Part shown: in pieces, positions 37,463 to 39,178 of the stretch
Position numbering within the stretch: position 1 is the stretch's first letter
Layout of the letters: every line of letters begins with the position of its first letter
Source of the DNA: Blautia hansenii DSM 20583
GTDB taxonomy: Bacteria; Bacillota; Clostridia; Lachnospirales; Lachnospiraceae
NCBI RefSeq assembly: GCF_002222595.2
Contig: NZ_CP022413.2
Location: forward strand, 132,501-196,500
Direction of reading: 5' to 3'
Length of the DNA stretch: 64,000 nt
Made by a program: the position numbers and the translations under genes
The notes under the pieces: generated by a model
What the model was told of the DNA's origin: nothing
Seen by the model: only the letters and a program-made list of their open reading frames with translations
The model's database searches: none

Positions 37463-37511
37463 TAGGGATTTTATAGCAGGATTTTTTAAATAACTTGCAT
37501 AGAATGATTAA

Positions 37512-37540
37512 GAAAGGTCGCAGAAATGCGGCTTTTTCTT
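37512..37540 (+). terminator. Terminator after yugP-like gene
   Basis: A short stem around the GAAA tetraloop (AAAGGTCGCA/TGCGGCTTT, one bulge) followed by TTCTTTTT. Confidence 0.65.
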
Positions 37541-37609
37541 TTTGCTCATTTCCTTGTGCTATAGGTGGAAATCAGTTAAAATAGAGTGCAGAAAGCAGGT
37601 GAACTAGTC

Positions 37610-38323
37610 ATGGCTAAAACGTATTTATGGATAGAAGACAGAAAAGGAAAAGCAAGTTATACATTTGGGATAAGTTTCATGGAACAACTTTGTCCGGATG
37701 TAATCGTTGAAAGCAAAAAGAACAATAGTGAATTAGTGAAGGCAGTTAAAGCATTACAGGATGCAGAGAATAAGTACATCATTGTTTTTGATAATTCTTT
37801 TGATAATTTGCAGATTGTGATGGAACAGAAATATTAAAAAAAATATGCAGATGAGAAGAAAAATGTTTTTCTGTTGGATATAATTTGTTTTGAGTATATT
37901 CTTTTAGAATTTAAAGAACTAATTGAGTGGATTTATGCTTCGGAAGATGAATTTTTGGAAAAAAGAGCTGGAATGATTGAGGCAAGACATAAACTTGTGC
38001 AAGCTTTACAGAATGATAATCTTGATTATAAGGAAATTCAAGAAATTGTGAAATATGATAAAAATATTGAAGAACATAATATTGAGCAATTAACAGCAAG
38101 GCTTCTGTTTGATTTGACGAGAAATACCGGGTTTGAAGTGTCAAAAGGGGTTCTTGGAGAATGTTGGATAAGGTCTTGTTGCGAATGGGAGAAGCGACAG
38201 GAAGATGACATCTGTGGATTAGATAATAGCAAACTATCTGTGGTTGAGAAAATGAAACGGATTTATGCAGGAAGTTCATTGAAAACACAGTTTCCTAAGG
38301 TTGGATTGGAGGTAGTGGCATGA
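37610..38323 (+). pseudogene. TOPRIM/RloB-like protein split by one in-frame stop codon
   Basis: Two open stretches in the same frame, 37610-37837 and 37838-38323, are separated by a single TAA at 37835-37837. Reading through gives one 237-codon protein with no other interruption, and the sequence after the stop (KKYADEKKNVFLLD) continues naturally. The start MAKTYLWIED is preceded by GCAGGTG. The fold pattern resembles TOPRIM nucleases of the RloB/DUF4435 type: an early Glu in YLWIED, then IIVFDNSFDN with paired Asp, then FLLDIICFEY. A change of TTA (Leu) to TAA would explain the break; a restart at the TTG at 37874 is possible. It could be a decayed gene, stop readthrough or a sequencing error. 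It is first in a tight unit with two further genes. Confidence 0.65.
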
Positions 38324-38760
38324 TAACGATTTTTAAGAACAAGAAGGATATACCTCAGGATAAAGAATATATAGAACTGAATGACATATTTTTTAATCAA
38401 AACACGGCAGCTAAATTAGATGAGAGGGCAGCAAAATATATTAAAATGATAGATTGCTCGGAGTTTCTTAGTAAATATAAAATTCGCTCACGATTTGAAG
38501 ATATTACATTGAATACAGATCAACTTTCCACGGGGTGTAAAACAGTATTGAATGTGTTGTATTTTCCGGACAAGGTGTTTTGCTTAAAAGAATGTGGAAA
38601 TAATGCCTTAGAAATATTGTATAGCTTTGAGCAAGGATATGTGTATAGTGATTATGCAATAATTCCTTTTAATATGGAACATGTAAAGGTTCAGACAAGC
38701 GAATGTAAAGTAATTGAAGATTATGAGGAGTTAAAGGAGTGGTGGGAAAATGAAAAGTAA
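38320..38760 (+). CDS. Uncharacterised protein, DUF4869-like
   Basis: A 146-residue protein overlapping the previous gene by 4 bp (ATGA) and the next by 11 bp. It has no signal or membrane segment. The central LSTGCKTVLNVLYFPDKVFCLKECGNNALEILY segment resembles what I recall of DUF4869 proteins, which have a similar pattern of a Gly-Lys turn followed by a Cys-Gly-Asn element. That match is from memory and weak. No catalytic motif is evident. The tight coupling implies joint function with the TOPRIM-like protein and the small ATPase. Confidence 0.6.
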   Translation: MITIFKNKKDIPQDKEYIELNDIFFNQNTAAKLDERAAKYIKMIDCSEFLSKYKIRSRFEDITLNTDQLSTGCKTVLNVLYFPDKVFCLKECGNNALEILYSFEQGYVYSDYAIIPFNMEHVKVQTSECKVIEDYEELKEWWENEK

Positions 38761-39178
38761 ACCGATTGTGATGAAGCATTTTTCAACAGTGCACACCTCG
38801 TTTGTAGTAGACTTTACATTTACAAACAACATAACGATTTTAATGGGGGACTCCGGAACAGGAAAGACAGCAACCTTCTCATTTATTAGAGAGTGTATGG
38901 CGCTCAATTCTAAAATTTTGTGTATGGATAATTATGATTATCAGAAAAATATAAAAGAGATAATTGTCCGTACCAAAGGGAAACTGATTGTTATTGATAA
39001 TGCAGACATTTTATTAGATGACGATATAAGAAAGTATATTTCTTTAGATGATAAAAATCAGTATTTAATTATAGGAAGAAATCCTAAAAATTTATTTGCG
39101 ACGAAAGAGAATTTATTTGAGCTGGAGAGTAAAAAAATCGGAGAGCAGACAGTGTTTAGGATAAAGCCATATATGTAA
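38750..39178 (+). CDS. Minimal P-loop ATPase-like protein
   Basis: A 142-residue protein with a clear nucleotide-binding core. Walker A is GDSGTGKT (residues 33-40), preceded by a beta strand (NNITILM), and a Walker B-like strand is KLIVIDNADILL (about 79-90). A further strand, QYLIIGRNP, resembles a sensor-1 position. At 142 residues it is far shorter than SMC-, OLD- or AAA-type ATPases: it has no room for a coiled coil, lid domain or effector domain. It overlaps the DUF4869-like gene by 11 bp. It probably works in trans with its neighbours. Confidence 0.75.
   Translation: MKSKPIVMKHFSTVHTSFVVDFTFTNNITILMGDSGTGKTATFSFIRECMALNSKILCMDNYDYQKNIKEIIVRTKGKLIVIDNADILLDDDIRKYISLDDKNQYLIIGRNPKNLFATKENLFELESKKIGEQTVFRIKPYM

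Follow-up and report, generated by a model that had tools for sequence, protein, structure and literature searches.

Three small overlapping genes, one coding a TOPRIM-like protein, one a relative of the family DUF4869 and one a very small P-loop ATPase, lie together in the chromosome of Blautia hansenii DSM 20583 (Lachnospiraceae), and raise the question of what such a trio may do. The genome is a single contig of 3.07 Mb (NZ_CP022413.2, 99.98% complete), and the stretch analysed here, called the window, comprises the 64,000 nucleotides from position 132501 to 196500 of that contig; the genes, named P1, P2 and P3, occupy positions 37610-39178 of the window and, like the hairpin and leader described below, are on the forward strand. 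An earlier note, made from the letters alone, had proposed a compact defence or DNA-processing system. The present analysis somewhat favours a three-subunit effector complex resembling PARIS and OLD; confidence is higher for the TOPRIM assignment and for the existence of a three-protein unit, and lower for a role in defence.

The three-gene unit and its fusions

P2 (38320-38760, 146 amino acids) and P3 (38750-39178, 142 amino acids) overlap by 11 bp, and the frame of P1, which ends at 38323, overlaps P2 by 4 bp; these coordinates agree with the overlaps originally noted. When public species genomes were scanned with P3, 112 relatives turned up; 80 of them were kept as loci, and the group with the order P1-P2-P3 numbers 79 loci, some genomes being counted twice. 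The partners are consistent from genome to genome. In 46 of the 79 loci the whole trio is intact, start codons sit at the 11-bp overlap in 62 of 63 intact P2/P3 pairs, 40 of 45 P1/P2 pairs have one at the 4-bp overlap, and the median ratio of nonsynonymous to synonymous substitution among nearest relatives is 0.10 for P1 (21 pairs), 0.075 for P2 (28 pairs) and 0.065 for P3 (26 pairs), as under purifying selection; thus, the arrangement is not due to chance.

In a second group the genes run P2-P3-P1 (e.g., L073, L075, L076, L078, L079, L091, L093, L094 and L109), and in one locus this form and a truncated P1-P2-P3 form stand side by side within about 4 kb (L013:2494-6429). Fusions are also found. 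Among loci seeded on the Pfam model of DUF4869, which represent the best-scoring part of its matches, a P3-P1 fusion gene of about 325 codons adjoins the DUF4869 gene in 27 of 30, with a frame of at least 300 amino acids in 17; in an alignment of 20 fusion rows, the N-terminal part matches P3 (hhalign probability 98.5, E 2.5e-15) and the C-terminal part matches P1 over the Glu and FExxxL motifs (probability 90.9, E 1.1e-6). The protein P0359 joins P2 and then P3 in 287 residues, and is the only one that long among the matches listed (120 of 7,997). To judge by these alignments, P1, P2 and P3 are tied together by natural fusions. B. hansenii itself carries a second, intact pair of a DUF4869 gene, a strong member of the family, and an ATPase-TOPRIM fusion at about 3.04 Mb (G000:C1 3043724-3045178; L115:8725-10179); an AAA_21-type ATPase gene adjoins this pair.

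A candidate ATP site divided between P2 and P3

The P-loop protein of 142 residues with GDSGTGKT and LIVIDNAD, described in the earlier note, is indeed present: P3 has the former as Walker A and the latter as a Walker B-like motif, and lacks an ABC (ATP-binding cassette) signature. Walker A is kept in 42 of 43 P3 rows and occurs in P3 only, while the signature LSxGxK, which reads LSTGCK in the window, is found in 51 of 55 P2 rows, with ISGGVK in the other four, and occurs only in P2, which has no P-loop. Walker A, signature and Walker B, which define an ABC-type ATPase when they share one domain, are therefore distributed over two genes. The proposal of an ATPase reduced to its core is right in that P3 is minimal, but from the motifs the enzyme is better described as divided.

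That P2 is DUF4869-like, as suggested at first, is supported by a score of 28.6 bits with the Pfam model (PF16163), just under the curated cut-off of 28.9, so that it is a divergent relative; the family was matched in 29 of 29 rows of the P2 alignment (A2) at E≤1, and the P2 profile matched 7,997 of 7,999 scored candidates. The third subunit, left as of unknown type, is a separate gene, as claimed; on predicted structures and profiles, P2 resembles the ABC signature lobe that P3 lacks. Its structural and profile match lists are nearly all ABC-type and include SMC/Rad50 heads, with ABC or SMC proteins at ranks 1 and 3 of 291 and at ranks 2, 3, 5 and 10 of 718. Comparison of P2 with viral proteins by Foldseek gave as its best match a weak one, to an AAA-type ATPase (E 1.3e-3), and comparison of the P1 and P2 profiles with the sequences of solved structures gave no useful match. 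More divergent pairs of a DUF4869 protein and a mini P-loop protein were seen in L110, L111, L097, L095 and L098; in the first three a downstream protein of the LLFED or LFEDN type may represent a third TOPRIM-like subgroup.

A shared site is also consistent with a reciprocal pattern of acidic residues. There are 116 distinct P2-P3 pairs, 98 of which are readable at both places by rule: P2 has Glu (in ECG, where the PF16163 core has T, N, A, V or S) and P3 has Asp-Asn in 77, whereas a residue other than Glu in P2 goes with Asp-Glu in P3 in 19. The two others are L061, which is E/D (P2 residue/P3 residue), and L103, which was misread by rule and is non-E/E. Those of the remaining 18 pairs that can be read by eye obey the same rule, except L141, where non-Glu goes with Asp-Asp, and L111, where Glu goes with Asp-Arg, and none of the readable pairs is E/E or non-E/N.

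Several points limit this reading of P2 or weigh against it. In the tree built from 55 P2 rows, including six not parsed by rule that are all non-E, the glutamate swap is a single change, so the pairing is only suggestive; each single match of P2 to ABC proteins is weak; and no Pfam ABC family was matched by any of the 29 P2 members at E≤1. These last two points fit a different explanation, in which LSxGxK resembles a signature by chance and P2, differently folded, is a sensor or adaptor beside an ordinary mini P-loop ATPase; with match lists so nearly uniform in their ABC content and a motif kept in 51 of the 55 rows, such an explanation is considered unlikely. The fuller proposal, that DUF4869 proteins serve as dedicated ABC signature subunits with no P-loop of their own, that a single ATP site gates a TOPRIM nuclease and that the Walker-B glutamate was handed between subunits, is put forward tentatively. 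We know of no earlier case in which Walker A and the signature of a single ABC ATP site are encoded apart, each in a gene of its own, and literature searches, covering titles and abstract openings, showed none; a search for DUF4869 by name found no paper in the library searched.

The TOPRIM-type protein and its loss

The motifs WIED and IIVFDNSFDN, noticed from the start as a Glu followed by DNSFDN, are indeed in P1, not in a single open frame in B. hansenii but in a gene in two pieces. The 5′ piece (37610-37837) begins with ATG, carries the TOPRIM-like N-terminal part with both motifs and ends at a frameshift stop; the 3′ piece (37874-38323) contains an ICFEY motif, a helical part and a Cys cluster. 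In a near-identical genome (L002), whose P3 is 99% identical, P1 is intact. The window P1 also has Gly in place of a Trp (W20) that is invariant among 61 aligned relatives, which makes decay likelier than a sequencing error. A programmed frameshift was rejected, a single open frame being present in 46 of the 79 loci. Since P1 is broken, the cassette is probably inactive in B. hansenii.

A TOPRIM-type fold is supported for P1 by its predicted structure, which aligns with OLD structures over 126-169 residues; absence of that fold had been named at the outset as one of two findings that would sink the proposal, the other being inconsistent gene neighbours. The Glu and the first Asp are invariant in 33 rows, while the second Asp of the DxD motif is replaced, unlike in OLD, and E9, D61 and C93-F-E95 of P1 were placed by eye at E400, D455 and T506-x-E508 of BpOLD (PMC6755086). 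The family DUF4435 was matched in 6 of 29 P1 rows at E≤1 (best score 26.7 bits, in L061, then 17.0 in L069 and 15.9 in L049), and by neither of the window pieces. After the TOPRIM core, residues 185-202 (L003 numbering) form an invariant cluster, C-x4-CC-x10-C, which is a possible zinc site.

The state of the genes was counted in the 71 of 79 loci that extend 1250 nt or more upstream of P3. P1 is intact in 46 of them, while 15 have it broken and 10 lack it. For P2 the corresponding counts are 64, three and four; an intact P3 is found in 68, the other three having it broken. P2 is intact where P1 is not in 18 of the 71, and the reverse was found in none; as L085 and L086 share BLAST values with L022 and L063, about 16 of the 18 are independent. 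The preferential loss of P1 supports, short of proof, the view that P1 is a costly effector, and one point counts against taking it as proof: P3 served as the query for these loci, a choice that favours an intact P3 and its neighbour P2.

The same counts fit a selfish cassette of the toxin-antitoxin kind, in which P1 would be a toxic TOPRIM nuclease, P2 and P3 its ATP-dependent restrainer, and persistence would come by addiction. It is a small and sporadic unit that moves with fixed ends, as described below, and up to ten DUF4869 matches occur in one genome (G111); yet all three genes are strongly conserved in relatives, the link to ABC/TOPRIM architectures typical of sensors and effectors is close, and deletion of either partner of PARIS is described as non-toxic (PMC9122126), which makes addiction improbable as the main explanation and leaves the PARIS/OLD-like complex preferred.

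Movement, kinship and proposed function

The cassette begins at a terminator-like hairpin (37512-37537; one hairpin against 0.1 expected), followed by a leader that moves with it and presumably holds the promoter (37538-37609), although no match to the sigma-70 consensus was found there. G790 has a unit that lies some 92 kb away from the Zn-peptidase gene and matches exactly 37512-39178 with 83.5% identity. This span runs from the hairpin through the P3 stop codon and contains only the three genes. The similarity edge at 37511-37512 recurs at other genomic places in L003, L005, L006, L007 and L191, the first four having nearly the same edges as G790, with L005 extending four bases further. The cassette is thus, as far as its edges tell, a unit that moves with fixed ends. 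In L060:3355-5571 the P1 frame runs continuously with an ABC-transporter frame, which suggests insertion into the transporter gene. G799, which is without the cassette, is not a clean empty site: most of the genes that follow are missing too and a remnant persists, which leaves gain and loss indistinguishable.

In the window, the cassette is flanked by a Zn_peptidase_2 gene on one side and on the other by three small open reading frames with no Pfam match over cut-off; further right lies a gene that we read as malQ-like. A TOTE conflict-system gene directly follows P3 in five close relatives; it is whole in L004 (= L083; AEP-TOTE, helicase and PLDc_2) and G790, while L005, L006 and L007 have it broken or cut. 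TOTE genes directly downstream of the cassette lie at L004:6464-9415 and L191:1044-4043, and in L191 the next gene is small and Cys-rich, its start resembling that of the gene that follows the cassette in L009. When 145 of 270 nearest neighbours and 145 of 163 control genes were compared with PADLOC at 1e-15, 109 models were matched near cassettes and 23 in the control; this raw count favours the cassettes, with distinct proteins uncounted, and of the 25 models listed out of the 109 most have a single protein, none has more than two members and many are variants of type III methyltransferase or type I specificity. The control also holds an OLD/GajA/AriA-like match. No relatives of P1 were found in viral contigs and P3 had no match at 1e-5 in phage and plasmid collections; a weak DUF4869 candidate in one phage-like contig was taken as chance.

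The distribution is patchy. The Pfam model of DUF4869 matched 78 of 397 genomes of the host's family and, of 398 sampled across the phylum, the host's alone; with the A2 profile, 6 of 391 genomes of the class were matched, all six in the family, and with the window protein 27 of 200 genomes of the family. P3 occurs in 5 of 20 genomes of the genus, two weak and resembling the fusion type; its named relatives are mostly Lachnospiraceae by record title, with a few titled otherwise (e.g., Ruminococcus, and metagenome-assembled genomes titled Bacteroidales and Gastranaerophilales). A housekeeping or DNA-repair ATPase-nuclease of the SMC/Rad50/RecN kind, with no role in conflicts, would agree with the SMC/Rad50 heads among the P2 matches, with neighbour clusters that by our own reading look mostly ordinary and with the cell-cycle role ascribed to an archaeal OLD relative (PMC12796447), but it is more improbable still, given the patchy presence, the differing genomic places and the frequent decay of the nuclease gene.

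The supposed kinship to systems joining an ATPase and a TOPRIM nuclease is supported. PARIS, like the cassette, has separate genes for the two, AriB being a DUF4435 TOPRIM protein; its AriA is a whole ABC ATPase, while the cassette has Walker A and signature on two genes and a third subunit. PARIS detection uses an AAA_15 or AAA_21 ATPase (32 and 27 bits) with DUF4435 over 27 bits, and fused forms exist, as among the cassette relatives (PMC9122126). Neither ATPase family was among the 16 Pfam matches of P3 at E≤10, and L061, the best P1 relative, falls 0.3 bit short for DUF4435. OLD (class 1 and 2) has ATPase and TOPRIM in one chain, which the window lacks, and the fused chains of the relatives are without the LSxG signature. 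Gabija (GajA/GajB), which targets DNA, differs in that the cassette ATPase is split and has no UvrD-like helicase gene beside it in the window. As to targets, there is precedent for tRNA with AriB (PMC12409363) and for DNA with OLD (PMC6755086). Literature searches, covering titles and abstract openings, found no description of the P1-P2-P3 trio.

In the PARIS/OLD-like complex proposed here, P3 would bind ATP through Walker A. From the other side of the interface P2, as an ABC-type head without P-loop, would contribute the LSxG signature, and the two would build one composite ATP site. P1, as a TOPRIM metal nuclease, would be restrained or licensed by this ATPase. In response to a trigger, probably an infecting phage or some other mobile element, the ATP state would shift and P1 would be set free, or put in place, to cleave nucleic acid; its target might be tRNA, by analogy with AriB, or DNA, as for OLD and Gabija, and the cutting would stop growth or destroy the invader.

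DUF4869 is a large family with no assigned function, and the finding offers it a testable job, as the signature half, in trans, of an ABC motor gating a TOPRIM nuclease. If this is true, an ABC ATPase can be split into gene-sized halves, and the cassette would be a small system (142, 146 and 237 amino acids) for the study of one ATP site alone. Among gut bacteria, the OLD/Gabija/PARIS group would gain a new variant, and the Lachnospiraceae a new three-part immune architecture.
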